Shown here: positions 130-12,777 of the stretch, one piece after another
Layout of the letters: the number at the start of each line of letters is the position of its first letter
Position numbering within the stretch: position 1 is the stretch's first letter
Translations under genes and position numbers: made by a program
From: a virus
Reading direction: 5' to 3' (one strand)
Length of the DNA stretch: 25,245 bases
IMG/VR virus record: IMGVR_UViG_3300008262_000858
Location: 1-25,245 of that record
The notes under the pieces: model-generated
Seen by the model: the letters and a program-made list of their open reading frames with translations, nothing else
Database searches by the model: none
Told to the model about the DNA's origin: nothing

Positions 130-1047
130 TTATAGCAATCCTGCTAATTTTTTCCATCTGTTAGCCAATTCAAATCCTTCGTTAAGAATTGGAGCAGATT
201 TAGGAGCCGTTGTGTGTGTTGCTTTAGATGCATAAGACTCTTTTACTACTCGCTTCTTAGTTTCAGGACGTTTGAATGATTCAGCCAACGTGCTAAATAC
301 TAATTTTACTTCTCTTGTGTTTCCTGCACGATCAAAATTTTCAATCACTTTCATTTTCTGACCTTCAGTTAACTCAAAATTGCGGAACAATTTGTTTGTG
401 TAAAGAAGTTTTGCATTCAGAAGATTTACTTCGTTGATGATGTTGTTTAGTTTTTTAACTGTGCGATAAGCTTCTTCTAACTCTTCTTTAGCTTCTGCTA
501 ACTCATCATGAACTTTAGCAGTTCCATCTTCATCCTCTGCAGAAACATCACCTTCTGTTTTGTAATTTTCTTCACGAAGAATTGCTTCAATGATTTCATC
601 GATATCTTCTTCCAGAGTGTCATCATCGTGTGAATATTTACCTTCTGGCATTTCTTCTGCTGGCATTTCATCATCTGGCATTTCATCAGAAATTGCATCT
701 TCATGTAAATCTTCTTCTAATTCACGAATAATGGATTCTAGATCTAGATCTCTTTCATCATGTCCGTAGCCTTCATTGTACTCGTCAGACATTTCTTCAT
801 CAGACATTTCTGCATCCATTGCTGGTTCTTGTTCTGCCGGTACTTCTTCTTCTTCTGCACCAACCATTCCTTCAAGATCCCATTCACCGTCGTTGTCGAA
901 ATCTAATCCGACATTAACTTGTTCTGGTGATCCTGTCATTGCTTCATCACCCATTTCCGCATCCATGTCCATTTCTGCATCCATTGGTTCTGCTGCATCT
1001 ACATCTTCATCGCCTTCTAATTCCATACGTAGTTTTTCACCTAACAT
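130..1047 (-). CDS. Prohead core scaffold protein (T4 gp22-like)
   Basis: The 305-residue product is very acidic in its first half, with repeated D/E-A/P-E-M clusters around residues 20-45, 75-90 and 120-135. It then has a helical, coiled-coil-like part and a C-terminal block containing LLNAKLLYTNKLF and REVKLVFSTLAESF. That C-terminal block resembles the gp22-like scaffolds of marine T4-type phages, as I remember them. It sits directly upstream of the capsid gene, as gene 22 does in T4. Scaffolds of this kind fill the prohead and are degraded by the gp21-type protease before DNA packaging. The ATG at 1047 is the first standard start, but it has no Shine-Dalgarno sequence, and the frame stays open and protein-like for another 41 codons upstream (see 1048-1170). 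The true start is therefore uncertain. Confidence 0.75.
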   Translation of the reverse strand: MLGEKLRMELEGDEDVDAAEPMDAEMDMDAEMGDEAMTGSPEQVNVGLDFDNDGEWDLEGMVGAEEEEVPAEQEPAMDAEMSDEEMSDEYNEGYGHDERDLDLESIIRELEEDLHEDAISDEMPDDEMPAEEMPEGKYSHDDDTLEEDIDEIIEAILREENYKTEGDVSAEDEDGTAKVHDELAEAKEELEEAYRTVKKLNNIINEVNLLNAKLLYTNKLFRNFELTEGQKMKVIENFDRAGNTREVKLVFSTLAESFKRPETKKRVVKESYASKATHTTAPKSAPILNEGFELANRWKKLAGLL

Positions 1048-1170
1048 ACTTTGAATTCTTGGGGCGAAAGCTTCTTGTAGAGCGATCTTTGCGTTTGCTA
1101 ATGCAGTTTCTTTAACAGCATTTGCATCGGCGATTGCTTGTTTTAGTAAATTTTTGTTTTGGAAATAAGA
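1048..1170 (-). other. In-frame, protein-like 5' extension of the scaffold gene without a standard start codon
   Basis: Reading upstream from the ATG at 1047 in the same frame gives 41 sense codons back to a TAA at 1171-1173. The translation includes LLKQAIADANAVKETALA and then KIALQEAFAPRIQSML, an alanine-rich amphipathic helix that looks like a genuine N-terminus rather than random translation. There is no ATG, GTG or TTG in this stretch; the only near-start codons are ATC at 1132-1134, ATC at 1084-1086 and ATT at 1054-1056. It could be translated from a non-standard start, reflect an assembly or sequence error, or be a decayed N-terminus. Confidence 0.55.
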
Positions 1171-1255: not shown

Positions 1256-1273
1256 CTAGTTTCAAAAACCAGT

Positions 1274-1304
1274 AAAAAAGCCCTAACTTTTTTAGCTAGG
1301 GCTT
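1274..1304 (-). terminator. Rho-independent terminator after bS21
   Basis: On the coding strand, arms GCCCTAGCT and AGTTAGGGC form a 9-bp stem (one G-U pair, extendable by A-T pairs) with an A5 loop, followed by a run of six T. It lies 20 bp after the bS21 stop codon. It should end the 4688-1325 transcription unit and isolate the scaffold-capsid unit from it. Confidence 0.85.
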
Positions 1305-1324
1305 CAATTCAATTCAAAATAACA

Positions 1325-1570
1325 TCATCTACCATACATATCTCGAATCATTTGCATATAAACTGCATTTGATTTTTCCGTTCTGCGTTGCACTGATGGT
1401 TTAATGTATTCTTTGCGATCTTTAACTGATTCTAATACTCCGGAAGATTTTACTTTGCGTTTCCATGTTTTAAGTGCGATTGCTAAATCTTCTCGAGATG
1501 TTCCAGGTACATGAACTCCTAATGCAGAACCCGGTAAAATCATTTGATGCTGTTTTTGTTTTTTACTCAT
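1325..1570 (-). CDS. rpsU: Phage-encoded 30S ribosomal protein bS21
   Basis: The 81-residue product has a roughly 25-residue N-terminal extension followed by a bS21 domain. The segment ALKTWKRKVKSSGVLESV aligns with the bacterial bS21 pattern AL-(K/R)-x-(F/Y/W)-K-R-x-x-x-x-x-G-V-L-x-x-(V/L), and YIKPSVQRR matches the KPS/T-x-x-(K/R)-R stretch. bS21 binds the 30S platform near the 16S rRNA 3' end and influences start-site choice. The C-terminal part AVYMQMIRD (Tyr71) looks like the Bacteroidota form, in which a C-terminal tyrosine helps bury the anti-Shine-Dalgarno tail; this comparison is from memory. Its ATG overlaps the upstream stop (ATGA), so the two genes are probably translationally coupled, and it is the last gene before a terminator. 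It is likely made late, with head proteins. Confidence 0.88.
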   Translation of the reverse strand: MSKKQKQHQMILPGSALGVHVPGTSREDLAIALKTWKRKVKSSGVLESVKDRKEYIKPSVQRRTEKSNAVYMQMIRDMYGR

Positions 1571-2100
1571 TGTAACTCGTTTTGATTAAATTTATTTGGT
1601 TTTGGGTTAATTGCTGGTGCTTGTTGTTGTGCTCGCACATTGAAACGAAAATGTTTAATTTCTGGCTTCTGTGCAATGTATCCTTGTATTCTTTGTGATT
1701 CTCGAGCCGGATCTTCTCCTAATCTAAAATAAAAGTATCCAACTTTTCCTGATTTAGATATTGTTCGTTTAACTACAGTAAATCCTTTTCGTTCAGCCCA
1801 TTCTTGAATTTCTGATGCTACCGACTGTGCTTCAGCAGGATCTCGAAGAACGTATTCTACGCCTCCGCGGTAATCGGTAATGTTGTTAACTAATTGAGCT
1901 TCTTCGATTTCTGATTCTTCTTCAATGTGAATTCTACCTTTTGTAGTTTTTATAATATGTTGAGCGGCTTTTACTTTGTTTTGATCCATCGCATCTTTTG
2001 GTGATAGAACAACATCTTTTGTCGGATCTGTCTTTCCGGTGGATGTAGATTGTTCTGTTAAACCAAAAAAGTCTCGATATAGTTTTTTAAGTTTATTCAT
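1567..2100 (-). CDS. Conserved head-cassette protein of unknown function
   Basis: I do not recognise the 177-residue family. The N-terminus (KKLYRDFFGLTEQ) is a short basic-amphipathic helix ending in L-T-E, which resembles the capsid-targeting peptides that T4-type prohead proteases cut after (L/I)-x-E; removal after residue 16 is a guess. Residues 80-150 look like a compact alpha/beta domain (EYVLRDPAEAQSVASEI, then GYFYFRLGEDPA), and the C-terminus is a Q/P/N-rich tail. The start at 2100 is supported by AAGG about nine bases upstream. It lies between the 2129-2503 gene and bS21, with a 4-bp overlap with the latter. A minor head or core protein is the likeliest role. Confidence 0.6.
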   Translation of the reverse strand: MNKLKKLYRDFFGLTEQSTSTGKTDPTKDVVLSPKDAMDQNKVKAAQHIIKTTKGRIHIEEESEIEEAQLVNNITDYRGGVEYVLRDPAEAQSVASEIQEWAERKGFTVVKRTISKSGKVGYFYFRLGEDPARESQRIQGYIAQKPEIKHFRFNVRAQQQAPAINPKPNKFNQNELQ

Positions 2101-2504: not shown

Positions 2505-3134
2505 TTATATCCTACATTTTCCATCTTCACAAAGTATTGATGTAATTGCATCATGTACTCGTGCGTATTTGTTTGGTTTTACATTGTTATTTACTGATTC
2601 ATTCATATGTGTTGGACGCATAAATGCTCCATGTGTTGAAGGATTAGATACAAAATCCCAACAAATCAATTCAAAGTCTTCTTGTACTTCTACTGCACTT
2701 TCATTGCGAAGTTCTTTAACTGATCCTAATCCGCGCGATGAAATACCTAATGTGATTCCCGCACGAAACAGTTCTTTAAGAATTTTACCGGATGGCGTAT
2801 CTAGTACTTGCACTGCGCCTTTTAAATCATCACCATCCCACCATATTTTAAGCACATTGTGAGACACATTGTTCAAGTTAACTACAGATGATTCCGGATG
2901 ATCTAATTCTCCTAATGCTCGGTGCTGATCGATATATTCTTTTTGATATCGCATACATTCACGTTGCAATATGTGTTTTGGATAAATTCTTCCATTCTGG
3001 TTTTTTGCTCCCGCCCTCTGTAAAACTCCTTGCACTACAAAACCACCAGGTATTCCATATGCGGCACCATTTGATTCTGTTAAAGAACCCATTGGCTTGA
3101 ATGGCATATATTCTACTATGAGTTGTTTTGACAT
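2505..3134 (-). CDS. Prohead maturation protease (T4 gp21-like)
   Basis: The 209-residue serine protease matches the gp21-type family. His79 lies in LGELDHPES and the putative nucleophile Ser132 or Ser133 in GISSRGLGS; these are the two conserved blocks of the fold. Downstream, FELICWDFVSNPSTHGAF fits the family's conserved C-terminal beta region. The protease acts inside the prohead, cutting the scaffold and trimming capsid and internal proteins, typically after (L/I)-x-E. The N-terminus contains GSLTES, a plausible self-processing site. The start at 3134 follows a strong AGGAG at 3141-3145. It lies in the head cassette directly upstream of a helical protein and the scaffold/capsid unit, matching the T4-like 20-21-22-23 order with insertions. 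Confidence 0.9.
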   Translation of the reverse strand: MSKQLIVEYMPFKPMGSLTESNGAAYGIPGGFVVQGVLQRAGAKNQNGRIYPKHILQRECMRYQKEYIDQHRALGELDHPESSVVNLNNVSHNVLKIWWDGDDLKGAVQVLDTPSGKILKELFRAGITLGISSRGLGSVKELRNESAVEVQEDFELICWDFVSNPSTHGAFMRPTHMNESVNNNVKPNKYARVHDAITSILCEDGKCRI

Positions 3135-4730: not shown

Positions 4731-6545
4731 TCATAAAATATTGTTTTCGTCCAACATAGTTCCTTTATCTGGATCTAGTTTATCAGCTGATTTCAATGTT
4801 TCGGTAATTATGCTTACTTTTTTATTAGTTCGCATACCTTTCACAATATTCTCAGTTCTGGATTTGAATCTAGGATCTGCTTGGAATGTAGTTTTCTGAT
4901 TTTCTACATCAAATGCCTGATTTATTTGTTTCGTTCCCATTGGATCCCAACCCATAGCATTTTTATGTTGACCGTACTTAATTCCCTCCGGCGGACGACC
5001 TCCTGCATCTTTTTCTTCGACATCTTTGCTAGACATATGCACTGTTGCTAAGTCATGCGGTGTACCATAAGATACTCCGGTTAATGCTGGATCATTGCCT
5101 TCTTGTTCAATTTGATTCTGACGGAATCGAAGCTTCAAGTCTTCAATAACATTGTTTCTTTCTTGCAACCACTGATCTTCTGACATATTAAATATGTATT
5201 CATAAATGTATCTGTCAGAAACTAATTTGCTGTCCTTCATTGCATTAGCCAATGTAATCTTTTCATTCATTAATGCAACTTTTTGTTGATCATAGATAAT
5301 GGATGGGGCAGTTAATTCTAATTCAAACCCAACTAAATCTTCACCTTCAAATCCTTGTGCATATAAATGTACTACAGCAATTTTTGCTAGTTCAGACACA
5401 GCAATTTTTTGTATTCGTTCTATGGTTCTAGCAAATCTTATATCCATAGAAGCTAATGTAGATTTACCTTCAACTCCTTCATCATAACCTAAAAATGGCT
5501 TTGGTATCTTTAAAGCTGCCATCATTTTGTGTTTGATGTATTCAATATCATCCATTCCGGTAAATGTCATGCCTGGCAGTGTGTCTATCTGAGTAGATGA
5601 TTGTCCTCCCCGTACCGGCAGATAATAATCTTCCAACATGTTGTTGATGTTGAAACGCAAATTGTAATTTCCAGTTTGAGGATCGATATGTGGAATCTTT
5701 TTCATTTTAGTCATGATTTGTTCCATGAAAGTATCTACCTCGTTAGGCGGAATATTTCCAATATCGATTTTAAAAATACGCTTTTCCGGAGCTCGCATAA
5801 TACGATGTATAAGCATCGCATCTTCCATCAACATTAATTTCTGAAATTCTTTACGAGCGCCCTCCAGCATGGATCTACCGTACGGTAAAAAGTTAGAATC
5901 TGACAACATTCGAAAATGTGCAATTTCATACACATCATATGTTAATTGTTCAGAAGCTACATTTTTAAATTTAATTTCATATTCACCAGTAGCTTCATTA
6001 TATTCTTCCCAACGTTCCATTTCATAACTTGAAAATGGACGAGCATTAATGATTCCAATTTCTTCAGCAATATCCAATTTTAAAAAGAAATCACCATACT
6101 TTGTCATGTTGCGAATCCATGACCACAAGTTGAATTCAATGTTCAGAATATCATAAAATAAATTGTAAAGTATTTTTTGCACTCTGGTGTTTTGTGCTCG
6201 TATTGTTAACACATCACCGAATTGATCAGCCAATGTAGATTCATCTGAATATATATCTAATGCTGAATTTATAATAGGATCTTTATCCATCATTTCGTAA
6301 TCTGCATACAACTGCATACGATTCTGATGCATATAATAATTGGAATCATATCCACCCATTCCACCAACTCGGTGTTTGTTGGATCCGTGGAGTCTAGTAT
6401 ACCGATCTGCTACTTTGCTTTGTGCTAAATTACCAACACCTTGAAGTCGATTGGTATCAACTATGCGTAATTGGTCTTTGCCATATGCACGAACAATTAC
6501 ATTGGTACTAAACAGGTTTTGTAAACGTTTTCTTAATGACGCCAT
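4731..6545 (-). CDS. Portal vertex protein (T4 gp20-like)
   Basis: The 604-residue product matches T4-type gp20 in length and in its central blocks. RIMRAPEKRIFKIDIGNIPP matches the gp20 pattern (IIRAPEKRVFYIDVGNLPP), followed by MEQIMTKMK, EDYYLPVRGG and IDTLPG. Twelve copies form the ring at the unique head vertex; it nucleates prohead assembly, docks terminase and conducts DNA. The N-terminal part has YADYEMMDKDPIINSALDIY, the usual gp20 helix. The C-terminal 100 residues are polar and glycine-rich, longer than the T4 tail. The start at 6545 is the first ATG after the promoter-like motif; no Shine-Dalgarno sequence is present, only A-rich sequence. It lies 47 bp after terminase, without the tail sheath and tube genes that separate them in T4. 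Confidence 0.93.
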   Translation of the reverse strand: MASLRKRLQNLFSTNVIVRAYGKDQLRIVDTNRLQGVGNLAQSKVADRYTRLHGSNKHRVGGMGGYDSNYYMHQNRMQLYADYEMMDKDPIINSALDIYSDESTLADQFGDVLTIRAQNTRVQKILYNLFYDILNIEFNLWSWIRNMTKYGDFFLKLDIAEEIGIINARPFSSYEMERWEEYNEATGEYEIKFKNVASEQLTYDVYEIAHFRMLSDSNFLPYGRSMLEGARKEFQKLMLMEDAMLIHRIMRAPEKRIFKIDIGNIPPNEVDTFMEQIMTKMKKIPHIDPQTGNYNLRFNINNMLEDYYLPVRGGQSSTQIDTLPGMTFTGMDDIEYIKHKMMAALKIPKPFLGYDEGVEGKSTLASMDIRFARTIERIQKIAVSELAKIAVVHLYAQGFEGEDLVGFELELTAPSIIYDQQKVALMNEKITLANAMKDSKLVSDRYIYEYIFNMSEDQWLQERNNVIEDLKLRFRQNQIEQEGNDPALTGVSYGTPHDLATVHMSSKDVEEKDAGGRPPEGIKYGQHKNAMGWDPMGTKQINQAFDVENQKTTFQADPRFKSRTENIVKGMRTNKKVSIITETLKSADKLDPDKGTMLDENNIL

Positions 6546-6592: not shown

Positions 6593-8173
6593 TTAGCGTA
6601 TCAGCCAAGTTAGATCTTCATCGCCATGGCCGTTATTCCATGACCAACCTGTATCTTGTTTAGATTGTCTGTTTGTGTATATTACTGGACTGGATTTTTG
6701 AAACTGTGAAAGTGCTCGTTTATTCAAATCAATTCCTTGTTGACGAAGTCTTAGAGCAGTGTCTCGTAGCCACAATGTGATTGCAAATGACATAACTAAG
6801 TCGTCGTTATATCCTTGTTGTGCCTGTGCTTTGCCATTTAGCCAAACAAATACCAATAGTTCTTGTATTAAACGTTTACTGCGAATTACTGGTGTTTTTT
6901 CTCGCATATACATTTCCAATGCCGAAATCATTAATGGTCGTGTACGTTGTGTTGTTGACACACCTGGTACCATCTGTGACTTATCTTTCATGTCATAACC
7001 CTTTTTGAGTTGCACATCAGGATCGACATAGCCATCATCTTTATATGTGTAATGCAGATTAGCATATCCTCTGTCTAATGCTGGTTGTATTGCAGCCCAA
7101 CCAATGTTTGCATTTTCAATAGCCAGCAATGCATTGTTCCATTCAGATGCAACAGTAACCAACATGTTACCAAATTCATTAGGTGGAACTTTGCCTTTAT
7201 ACTCAGCAACCTGTTTAACAGATTCAATATCAAACACTTGAAATGCGGAAAAGTCTGCAGAATCTCCTCGTGCAACGTCTGCTACTACTAAATAATCTCG
7301 AGCATAATCTGGATACTCCCATAACCAATATCCATGATCGAACCCCCTACGTTCTACTGGTTCTTCACATCGGGTTTCATATTCTAATAGCAAATTACCT
7401 TCAACAACCGTATGACCGGAACTAACAAAGTCACAGTCACATTCTTGTGCCGCTCCTCGTTCACCTAATAATTTTGTTTGATCATCACGCCATGATTGAT
7501 CTCGTTCCGGGTGCACGGTCCAATGCAATTTAATGGTATGGAACCCATTTAATTCTGATTCGGCTTCTGACCAAACCTGATGAAACCAGTTACCAACACC
7601 GTTAGGAGTAGATAACACAATAGCTCCACCACCTGTTGATAAGGTTGCTTGTGATGCTATCCATATTTCTTCAATGTTACGAATAAACGCAGCTTCGTCT
7701 ATAATAAGCAGTGATAATGCTTCTGAACGTGCTCCGGTGGTAGCTGATGATACTGCTTTTATTTGTGAACCATTTTTAAATTTAAGTGAAAGTTTGTTGT
7801 CTGCTTCAACCGTACCCTTCAGCCAGCTTGGTAAATTTTCATGCATCACTCGCACTTTAGTAACCAAGTTTTTTGCTACTTCTTGTGTGGTTGCAATAAC
7901 CAATACGTTAAAATCTTCTTTGAATAACATGCACCACAGAGCATATCCGGCTGCTAATGTGGATATACCTAACTGACGAGATTTCAATATTACATTGTAA
8001 CGATTGTCTCGCAATTCCGTTAATGAATCTTCCTGAAATGGATATAAATTAAATTTAATTTTACCTCGTTTAGGATGTTGGATATAGCAGTAGTTACGCA
8101 TAAAAAACACAGGATCTTTAGCACATAACATGTACTGTTGCTGTATTATTTGTTTTATGTTTGGCTGAGACAT
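6593..8173 (-). CDS. Large terminase subunit (T4 gp17-like)
   Basis: The 526-residue packaging motor has an N-terminal ATPase and a C-terminal nuclease. Walker A is KSRQLGIST (64-72), matching the T4-type SRQLGKTT variant with Lys replaced by Ile. Walker B is LLIIDE (155-160), and the coupling motif is STPNG (188-192). The RNase H-like nuclease shows Asp299 in VVADVARGD, Glu353 in LAIENANIG and Asp457/Asp458 in YNDDLVMS. It binds the portal, pumps DNA into the prohead using ATP and cuts the concatemer. T4 gp17 is longer (about 610 residues); the missing length is mainly at the N-terminus. It starts 2 bp after the preceding stop with no Shine-Dalgarno sequence, so translation is probably coupled. 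No small terminase is identified; the genes just upstream are candidates. Confidence 0.95.
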   Translation of the reverse strand: MSQPNIKQIIQQQYMLCAKDPVFFMRNYCYIQHPKRGKIKFNLYPFQEDSLTELRDNRYNVILKSRQLGISTLAAGYALWCMLFKEDFNVLVIATTQEVAKNLVTKVRVMHENLPSWLKGTVEADNKLSLKFKNGSQIKAVSSATTGARSEALSLLIIDEAAFIRNIEEIWIASQATLSTGGGAIVLSTPNGVGNWFHQVWSEAESELNGFHTIKLHWTVHPERDQSWRDDQTKLLGERGAAQECDCDFVSSGHTVVEGNLLLEYETRCEEPVERRGFDHGYWLWEYPDYARDYLVVADVARGDSADFSAFQVFDIESVKQVAEYKGKVPPNEFGNMLVTVASEWNNALLAIENANIGWAAIQPALDRGYANLHYTYKDDGYVDPDVQLKKGYDMKDKSQMVPGVSTTQRTRPLMISALEMYMREKTPVIRSKRLIQELLVFVWLNGKAQAQQGYNDDLVMSFAITLWLRDTALRLRQQGIDLNKRALSQFQKSSPVIYTNRQSKQDTGWSWNNGHGDEDLTWLIR

Positions 8174-10444: not shown

Positions 10445-10460
10445 TTTATAATAAATATCA
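10445..10460 (-). promoter_or_regulatory. Intergenic promoter-like motif
   Basis: The coding strand reads TGATATTTATTATAAA. The TGA is the stop of the ligase-like gene, and the motif is about 15 bp before the ATG at 10430. It resembles the copies at 4710-4722 and 24734-24749. Confidence 0.4.
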
Positions 10461-11702
10461 TCTAGAATATTTTAACACTCCTAAAATCTGATTAACGGGT
10501 GCAAATGCCCCGGTCATTTTATATGTGTTACCGCGATATGTGAATACTATGCCTTCTGCCGGGACAATTGAATCAAATCCTCCTAATCGTTCAATACGCT
10601 TTAATTCTAATTCTAATTTAGATAGAATTGCCGGATTTGGATTTGCTTGTAATTCTCGTATTAATTGAGCTAATTCCACGCGAATTTCTTGCACTGTTTT
10701 TGATGGATTTGCTGCCAAGAAATTTGTTGCATTCTGTAAAACCAATACTCCTAATCGCAGAAAGATGGATTCAAATGGTTCCAAGTTTTGTTTTCGAAAC
10801 TGTTTGAAATCTTTTTTATCAAATTCAGTGACCCATTCTGCAAACGGTGCGTTATCTATTTGTTTTTTCAATGCAGCAATGTTTGTAGATTTATCATCAA
10901 ATGCCCAACGATAAATTAATGGCGTTAATACAGCATCTGGTATTTCATATCCTAATTGTGTTGCCTTGGTTCGTATTACATCTGCCCACCAGGCTTTATG
11001 ATATTCACTAATTAAGTCTGTTTCTTTCAAATTGAACTTCTGTTGAAGCTGATCAATTTCATTGAAAAATGCGGCTTGTTGATCTTCAAAATCATAAACC
11101 CGTCCCATTTTAATTTGCTGTGGTGGAATAAATGAAAATGTTTTTTGCATATGAGCATTGGCATCCTGAATAACTGATTGCATCAATGCCCCACCTGTTA
11201 AATCGGTTTCTACAACGTTTCCTTTTTCATCATATTCAACTAAATTGTGAAATTGTAAATGAGCTTTATCATATGCAATAACATTTTTTGTTGATGGATA
11301 AATAATTTCCATGTTAGCAAATACTCGTCCATTTTTGAATATTTGTTGTAGTCGGTCTGCTGGTATTTTTCCTAATGCTTCCGTTAAATCTTCAGCACAT
11401 GCTCGATATGCATCAACTATTAATTTATAGCCCTGAGCTCCTTCAACACCATTTTTTTCTACGGATTCCTGATACTTTCTTTCAAAATCAGCAACTAATT
11501 GGGATGGTGTCATTGGATTGATTATGGTGCCTTTATTACGAGCAAATCCAGGCTGACCATCTTTCCATGTAACAAAAATGTTTTGGCCATCGGTTTTTTC
11601 TGTAACTGCAGATTCGATATCTAGTCGTCCTTCCAATGCCCTGGAAACGATTTCCCGTACATCATTAAAAGTTAATCCATGATCGTCCCAAGGATGCGCC
11701 AT
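10458..11702 (-). CDS. KxDG-type nucleotidyltransferase (RNA/DNA ligase-like), possibly the C-terminal half of a split protein
   Basis: The 414-residue product carries ligase/capping-superfamily signatures. Motif I is EKTDGQN with Lys36 as the presumed nucleotidylated lysine. A motif III-like block is VFANMEIIYP. Motif IV is EGIVF (383-387) and motif V is YKMTG with Lys395. Such enzymes adenylate a lysine and transfer AMP to a 5' nucleic acid end; the actual substrate is unknown. About 180 residues between motifs III and IV are an insertion relative to simple ligases. The frame is open upstream of the ATG through LTEGGAAGH, to a TAG at 11733-11735. That GGAxGHMxHPxD region resembles a motif I recall from longer phage nucleotidyltransferases, so the true protein may begin in the overlapping upstream gene. 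The overlap is 38 bp. Confidence 0.75.
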   Translation of the reverse strand: MAHPWDDHGLTFNDVREIVSRALEGRLDIESAVTEKTDGQNIFVTWKDGQPGFARNKGTIINPMTPSQLVADFERKYQESVEKNGVEGAQGYKLIVDAYRACAEDLTEALGKIPADRLQQIFKNGRVFANMEIIYPSTKNVIAYDKAHLQFHNLVEYDEKGNVVETDLTGGALMQSVIQDANAHMQKTFSFIPPQQIKMGRVYDFEDQQAAFFNEIDQLQQKFNLKETDLISEYHKAWWADVIRTKATQLGYEIPDAVLTPLIYRWAFDDKSTNIAALKKQIDNAPFAEWVTEFDKKDFKQFRKQNLEPFESIFLRLGVLVLQNATNFLAANPSKTVQEIRVELAQLIRELQANPNPAILSKLELELKRIERLGGFDSIVPAEGIVFTYRGNTYKMTGAFAPVNQILGVLKYSR

Positions 11703-12777
11703 ATGACCTGCAGCACCACCTTCTGTCAGATCCTACGCCAGTTGGTCGTTCTAAATTCAATTGTCTGGCAATTTTATCTCCGTATTCTGTTGCCAAGTCT
11801 TCAAAAAAGTCTTTTAGCTCATCCGTATAAATTGGAGCTTCATTACGAGGATCATTTAATCTATCAATAAAATGCGTAAACTTGCCTTGAAAATCTACAT
11901 CAATTCCATATTCTTTAAAAAATCCATCAACTGCAGATTCGATTGCTGATAATTCTTGTCTAGTAATGTAGTTTTCTGTTATAACGCCTTCTTGAAGTTT
12001 TGCCCCATACACTGTTTTATCAAAAATATCAAAATCATATACAAATGATTTTCCATCATGTTTGTTTAAAAATGATCTTAACTTTTTAATTTTTTCAGAA
12101 TGTCGTTGTTTTTCTCGTGGAAACATCATTGCTTCTAGCATATCATCTACATCTTCTTGCAGTTGCTTTGACCACCATTCCGTAGTAAATACCGCTTCTT
12201 GCATTCCCGTTAATAATTGCCATGCATTTTTTACTTTGGCTTCTGCATATTGTGGATATGATGCTCGAAACATTGCATAGTCCCGATTAGCAATTGCATT
12301 TCTAACGGTGGTTGCGGATATCGGAGTATTTTCTGCATACATCAATGGATCTACATTTAGTGACAATTCAACTGCATCGATACCGGCAGGTATTTTTCTT
12401 CCTTTTTTATCTCCAATGGTTGCATATTTATCCACATTTGGAACAAAGTCTTTGGCGCGAACATAATCATCTCCTTTGGTAGATGCAGCCATAGCATACT
12501 TTCCAACGGCATCTTCCGGCAACTCAAACAAATATTCATATGCTGCCATTATAGGAGAATTAAATGCTGTTGACTGTATTTCAATGTTTGGATTATCATT
12601 CAACAGATTAAACAGTTCTATAGTTTTTTCTCTGGTTATACCATCACGCTCTTTAGGACCAATCAAAAGTATTACTCGATCTACTTGTGCATCTTGTGCA
12701 TACCTATTAGCCAGATCTAAATGTGCTCCGGTTAATGGTTTAAACCCGCCTGGAAAAAGTACTGTTATGTTGTTCAT
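11665..12777 (-). CDS. HIGH-motif nucleotidyltransferase (adenylyl/cytidylyltransferase-like)
   Basis: The 370-residue product has the nucleotidylyltransferase signature GGFKPLTGAH (10-19; GxFxPxxxGH) and the second motif ISATTVR (153-159), as in NMN or pantetheine-phosphate adenylyltransferases. It would transfer a nucleotidyl group from NTP to a small phosphate acceptor; NAD synthesis or a specialised modification are both possible. Residues 205-350 form an extra helical region. The last 19 residues (from RRWCC to the stop) are rich in Arg, Cys and Trp, unlike the rest, and are read out of frame across the start of the ligase-like gene. A +1 step at about 11733 would instead continue into DLTEGGAAGHM of that gene. 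The start at 12777 follows the promoter-like motif with only AAAGAA upstream. Confidence 0.78.
   Translation of the reverse strand: MNNITVLFPGGFKPLTGAHLDLANRYAQDAQVDRVILLIGPKERDGITREKTIELFNLLNDNPNIEIQSTAFNSPIMAAYEYLFELPEDAVGKYAMAASTKGDDYVRAKDFVPNVDKYATIGDKKGRKIPAGIDAVELSLNVDPLMYAENTPISATTVRNAIANRDYAMFRASYPQYAEAKVKNAWQLLTGMQEAVFTTEWWSKQLQEDVDDMLEAMMFPREKQRHSEKIKKLRSFLNKHDGKSFVYDFDIFDKTVYGAKLQEGVITENYITRQELSAIESAVDGFFKEYGIDVDFQGKFTHFIDRLNDPRNEAPIYTDELKDFFEDLATEYGDKIARQLNLERPTGVGSDRRWCCRSYGASLGRSWINF
11706..11736 (-). other. Possible +1 frameshift junction between the nucleotidyltransferase and ligase-like frames
   Basis: Upstream frame: GTA GGA TCT GAC (V-G-S-D). The ligase frame is open from GAT at 11730-11732 (D-L-T-E-G-G-A-A-G-H-M) and closed just above by a TAG at 11733-11735. 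Skipping one base after GTA joins the two frames into one protein. The codons before the ligase ATG encode a conserved-looking motif, so they are probably translated. A natural frameshift, a recent mutation or an assembly error are alternatives. Confidence 0.5.

Follow-up and report, generated by a model that had tools for sequence, protein, structure and literature searches.

The stretch of DNA analysed here, called the window, comprises 25,245 nucleotides of a viral record from IMG/VR (IMGVR_UViG_3300008262_000858, positions 1 to 25,245). On its minus strand, at 1325-1570, lies a gene of 81 amino acids that a sequence-only reading had taken for a homologue of ribosomal protein bS21. The Ribosomal_S21 profile (PF01165) matches this ORF with 46.5 bits, above the curated cut-off of 27, and a genome search with the same profile gives 46.3 bits. 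When aligned with Bacteroidota bS21 the protein falls inside the family, and the closest solved structure is the bS21 of F. johnsoniae (PDB 7jil_z, 32 bits). Since residues 22-78 pair with residues 5-61 of that chain, Tyr71 corresponds to F. johnsoniae Tyr54 and the N-terminal extension (MSKKQKQHQMILPGSAL...) is 17 residues long. The extension proposed earlier does exist, but its supposed length of about 25 residues was rejected on this alignment. Position 54 is aromatic in all 69 complete distinct proteins of the same form (41 Phe and 28 Tyr), and the ribosome-contacting core is conserved along with it. In Bacteroidia-type bS21, a Tyr at this position stacks on A1534. Judged from its sequence, the product is a true bS21 with a C-terminus of Bacteroidia type, which bears out the family assignment as well as the Bacteroidota-like C-terminus with Tyr71.

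The gene belongs to a T4-like head cluster, with the terminase large subunit (TerL), portal and protease all upstream on the same strand. Directly preceding it is a conserved gene of unknown function, g177 (1567-2100, minus strand, 177 amino acids), and two genes further upstream of g177 sits a T4 gp21-like prohead protease (2505-3134, minus strand; PF03420, Peptidase_S77, 111.7 bits) with the Shine-Dalgarno (SD) sequence attAGGAGaataacATG ahead of its start. The T4 gp20-like portal protein (4731-6545, minus strand; PF07230, 226 bits) and TerL (6593-8173, minus strand; PF03237, phrog_2) both have starts without an SD. Coupling of bS21 to the gene before it was seen in the window as a 4-nt ATGA overlap with g177. 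This exact overlap is limited to the window and its nearest kin, with the preceding gene ending further upstream in most relatives, and was therefore rejected as a conserved feature.

Downstream of bS21, a hairpin terminator at 1271-1312 (minus strand) has a 12-bp stem and a U tail, with -17.7 kcal/mol and a z-score of -4.6. A simple terminator scan missed it because part of the T-run pairs within the stem. A hairpin and T-run occur at this place in all 61 distinct relatives, in agreement with the strong terminator described earlier. The gene had also been read as the last of its head-gene unit. It does close the transcription unit, but the head region continues, since in relatives bS21 is followed by a gp22-like scaffold gene and then the MCP gene. 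In the window, this acidic scaffold gene (130-1147, minus strand) lacks both SD and start codon, whereas in relatives it starts with MAKSDLLK behind TTTAAGGAG. Compared with two close relatives (L001 and L002), 31 nt are missing at 1147/1148 and the compared stretch is otherwise identical; this is either a real deletion or an assembly error. Elsewhere in the window, a nucleotidyltransferase-like gene (10458-12777, minus strand) appears as two overlapping ORFs of 370 and 414 amino acids. It is a single 831-aa ORF in G207, a 169-kb relative, which suggests a frameshift or an assembly error. No Rfam families or tRNA were found within the window.

Relatives are numerous in IMG/VR: a first scan yielded 52 loci, and of 234 candidate stretches in a second the best 80 were retained. 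Two layouts were found. In the long form, which is that of the window, an extended bS21 lies co-directionally between g177 and the scaffold gene, in the order TerL-portal-g282-g235-protease-g141-g177-bS21-scaffold (L001-L039, to the extent that each contig covers it). In the other layout, a short bS21 points the other way from the protease, portal and TerL genes. In a wider set based on the protease, the bS21 occupying this slot has different basic extensions, which end in a PG....V(K/N)V hook. No bS21 is found in immuto, a cultured Flavobacterium phage, either at this slot or elsewhere in its genome.

The core of this finding is of a known kind, because Chen 2022 already reported bS21 beside the prohead protease in Bacteroidota phages, with an aromatic residue 54 and late transcription (PMC9723584). 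Their clades a-e, from lake Bacteroidetes phages, likewise have bS21 near protease, portal, TerL and MCP, and are freshwater myoviruses with an aromatic-54, Bacteroidia-type bS21 (PMC9723584). In the long form, too, a Bacteroidota phage has its bS21 close to the genes for prohead protease, portal and TerL. It differs in strand, being co-directional, whereas in those clades bS21 lies opposite the structural genes. Relatives with the layout of Chen 2022 (L041-L045, L048-L052 and G214) have a short bS21 without the extension and no SDs, and Bacteroidota promoters were present in both contigs tested (G214 and G225). A phage bS21 in a large myovirus, one that enters E. coli ribosomes, is also known from pelagiphage HTVC008M (Mizuno et al. 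2019, PMC6375957), although of alphaproteobacterial type and with no N-terminal extension mentioned in the text of that paper. A search of the main texts of PMC9723584 and PMC6375957 found no mention of the extension, the co-directional layout, an SD-less bS21 among SD-led neighbours or the SD usage of the lineage, and our full-text literature search found no paper on a phage bS21 with an N-terminal extension. From the sequences compared, the new elements are the 17-residue KKQKQHQ...PG extension, a gene order and strand unlike those of Chen's clades, and an SD-less bS21 start amid conserved SDs on head genes in an apparently SD-blind host.

The extension is encoded at 1520-1570 (minus strand), and its first nine codons are nearly invariant (M[SN]KKQKQHQ). 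Long-form proteins begin M[SN]KKQKQHQ..(I/V).PG, a motif (KKQKQHQ...PG) that is near-invariant in the lineage. In an alignment of 22 proteins, M1, K3, K4, K6, Q7, H8, Q9 and G14 do not vary, and the extension hardly changes whereas much of the bS21 core does. The codon AAG is scarce in it (2 of 192, versus 67 of 622 in the core), and this avoidance hints that selection on the mRNA may account for part of the conservation. An AF2 model of the extended protein (pLDDT 88.9) predicts a helix at residues 3-10; Foldseek matched mitochondrial bS21 weakly (E 0.5). Cellular bS21 with this extension was also sought: among M[SN]KKQKQ stretches in 84,980 species genomes, a scan limited to exact patterns, none was confirmed as a bS21 relative carrying it, and the possibility was set aside. 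The one bS21 relative confirmed from that scan is an ordinary Flavobacteriaceae rpsU without the extension.

A basic extension on a protein encoded inside a head cluster could suit an RNA-binding protein linked to the virion or its assembly, or a decoy for some other RNA, acting outside ribosomes; Chen et al. considered that bS21 might be packaged (PMC9723584). We regard a role outside ribosomes as improbable, given the conservation of position 54 and of the ribosome-contacting core, and given that a bS21 of phage origin has been found to enter ribosomes (PMC6375957).

In terms of initiation signals, none of 66 distinct long-form bS21 starts has an SD at dG <= -8, and their median of -0.9 is like that of shuffled sequence. 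At dG <= -6, the SD is present at 47 of 47 distinct protease starts and 43 of 44 scaffold starts, compared to 0/20 for TerL, 0/24 for portal, 0/45 for g282, 0/48 for g177 and 0/54 for bS21. The SD of g235 was set aside as a conserved signal, being found in only 65% and overlapping the coding end of the preceding gene. For the protease, we rejected the idea that the SD is a by-product of coding: the glycine codon involved is GGA or GGG at 92 of 92 places, while GGT and GGC make up 54% of Gly codons in these genomes, although the phages counted are related to one another.

This SD use extends across the genome. In 485 genes from five long-form contigs, an SD peak at -16 to -8 reaches 0.021-0.033 per nt over a background of about 0.001-0.005, and is absent in the short-bS21 contig G214 and in the bS21-less immuto. 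The SD-led genes include those for sheath, MCP (weak), scaffold, protease, GroES and ssDNA-binding protein, among others, and their orthologues in immuto and G214 have no SD. Contigs with extended bS21 are enriched in SDs by 3-23 fold, versus 0.2-0.6 fold in immuto and G232 (both bS21-less) and in G214 and G225 (both short bS21). Genomes served by a Bacteroidia-type bS21 would be expected to be SD-depleted, and the long-form phages are the opposite.

Cells give the reference for this expectation. Across 40 Bacteroidota genomes (L368-L407), those with an aromatic-54 bS21 have an SD in only 2 of 261 genes (0.8%, background 2.5%), versus 48 of 358 (13.4%, background 3.2%) in those with a non-aromatic position 54. 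The host rpsU of Flavobacteriaceae resembles the phage gene in its bS21 core and in the C-terminal aromatic that touches the 16S 3' tail. According to Jha 2021, as cited in McNutt et al. 2023 (PMC9976891), the host gene is autoregulated, carries an extended SD and has no N-terminal extension; the phage gene is SD-less. In our own count, 27 of the 29 best-matching Flavobacteriaceae rpsU genes reach dG <= -12, at about -17 kcal/mol; the extended SD of an autoregulated rpsU was found before none of the 66 phage genes. In many Flavobacteriaceae there is, besides the SD-led rpsU, a further bS21 paralogue (MLKIIVKDGENIERALKRYKRKHRN...) that lacks an SD (L190-L192, L195, L199, L202 and L203), so an SD-less bS21 is not unique to phage.

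The long-form phages thus combine SD-led genes with a bS21 of SD-blind type. Two readings follow: SDs are read by the host after all, or the anti-SD is freed by something in the infected cell, most obviously the extended bS21. The sequence-only reading had bS21 helping to hide the anti-SD; as a net effect this is doubtful, because the same phages carry conserved SDs ahead of head and tail genes, which would serve no purpose with the anti-SD hidden.

One explanation is that the extended bS21 switches SD-blind Bacteroidia ribosomes to SD reading by binding the platform while leaving the anti-SD free. The SD-led protease, scaffold, sheath, GroES and ssDNA-binding protein messages would then outcompete SD-less host mRNAs, and the bS21 gene itself, being SD-less (66/66), would still be translated by host ribosomes not yet modified. 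The SD peak and enrichment confined to extended-bS21 contigs in the comparisons above, the split between the two kinds of cells, and host markers pointing to aromatic-54 Bacteroidia would all fit. We nevertheless consider this switch unlikely. All 69 proteins retain the aromatic by which the 3' tail is anchored, suggesting that the tail is still bound. The SD-led genes are scattered genome-wide, so strictly late use was rejected. Exceptions run both ways, with SDs beside a short bS21 (G236, L310, L314 and L321) or where no bS21 was found (G233), and an extended bS21 without SDs (L293). On the protease tree there are 2 SD changes and 4 extension changes, with only 2 independent supported pairs and no significance; the correlation between extension and SD is confounded by descent, and was rejected as a case of independent evolution. 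Finally, cultured gut Bacteroides phages without bS21 (crAss001 first half, DAC15 and B124-14; L408, L413 and L414) show a 2-3 fold SD-like excess in part of their genomes. Five Flavobacteriia phages show no such excess.

The alternative, that the SDs reflect a host or host range already reading them with phage bS21 as a plain replacement that has nothing to do with SD use, depends on the host. We found no direct host link for the long-form phages. A T9SS type-B sorting domain is encoded in G207/G208 (57-65 bits in G207, a long-form contig), and such a domain occurs in 0 of 14 control genomes. The GroEL of G207 scores highest against aromatic-54 Bacteroidota, at a median of 760 versus 718 bits (p=1.8e-6). 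Together with the aromatic-54 bS21, these sequence markers make the host look like an SD-blind Bacteroidia, which counts against a host that reads SDs. On the other hand, the long-form contigs show no Bacteroidota promoter signal and two of them, G207 and G209, carry sigma70-like TTGACA promoters. The promoter search was rejected as a host test: the missing signal is not diagnostic, because immuto, a known Flavobacterium phage, lacks it too. An SD-reading host would also agree with the 13.4% of SD genes in non-aromatic-54 Bacteroidota, and with the SDs of short-bS21 and bS21-less relatives. We hold this alternative to be a real possibility, somewhat short of an even chance.

Microcystis phage Mel-JY01 (PP395634) bears on the same alternative. 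Its RpsU is likewise slotted between protease and scaffold, with a different extension and a non-aromatic position 54, and the phage has SDs along with Bacteroidota-type promoters (18 sense and 2 antisense, about 0.8 expected; L209, L323-L327). Because of these promoters, the phage may have been wrongly assigned to Microcystis and may instead infect a Bacteroidota present in the culture.

Two further promoter observations concern the long-form contigs. A repeated sigma70-like element, TTGACACGCATtG...TTATcTT (TTGACAC...TTATcTT), forms one cluster in G207 (L216:3569-7849) and in G209 (88209-91900), and in G207 it adjoins a phage gene for a sigma70-family factor (L216:3649-4389). In addition, the intergenic TATTTATA shows a strong strand bias upstream of genes, with 83 sense and 7 antisense copies against 10 expected (L211-L228 and L239-L245), and is a likely late promoter.

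The explanation we favour, with a probability of roughly 0.6, is replacement of the host bS21 by the extended phage protein, biasing ribosomes to phage messages. It is kept as the best explanation because descent confounds the correlation of extension and SD, because exceptions go both ways, and because of the SD excess in gut phages. A virulent T4-like phage of aquatic Bacteroidia would produce the extended bS21 alongside the proteins of its head; that phage bS21 is expressed late and replaces the host protein has been proposed before (PMC9723584, PMC6375957), and related phages transcribe bS21 with structural genes, late (PMC9723584). On the 30S platform the phage protein would stand in for host bS21, with its C-terminal part anchored to the 16S rRNA 3' tail by the conserved aromatic. 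Close to the mRNA exit, the basic extension, with its predicted helix and PG hook, may make a further contact not available to host bS21. Lacking an SD, the phage gene should be expressed free of the throttling that the host's SD-based bS21 autoregulation imposes. The gene, its family and context, the extension, the aromatic, the missing SD and the terminator are shown by the sequence; we infer that the protein is incorporated into ribosomes, when it is made in this lineage, where the extension lies and which way the bias runs. A phage bS21 does enter E. coli ribosomes, but those with the pelagiphage protein are nearly inactive (PMC6375957), which counts against replacement.

This lineage bears on the question of why phages carry bS21; no example is clearer than Bacteroidia for bS21 controlling whether ribosomes read SDs. 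Where a modified bS21 and SD-led genes meet in a host that seems SD-blind, one can test directly whether a single phage ribosomal protein changes the start-site code of its host. If the switch were true, it would be a virus-encoded translational switch built on one ribosomal protein, with SDs placed on high-demand genes and none on the bS21 gene. Even if the SDs have another cause, this lineage challenges the rule that Bacteroidia messages do without useful SDs.
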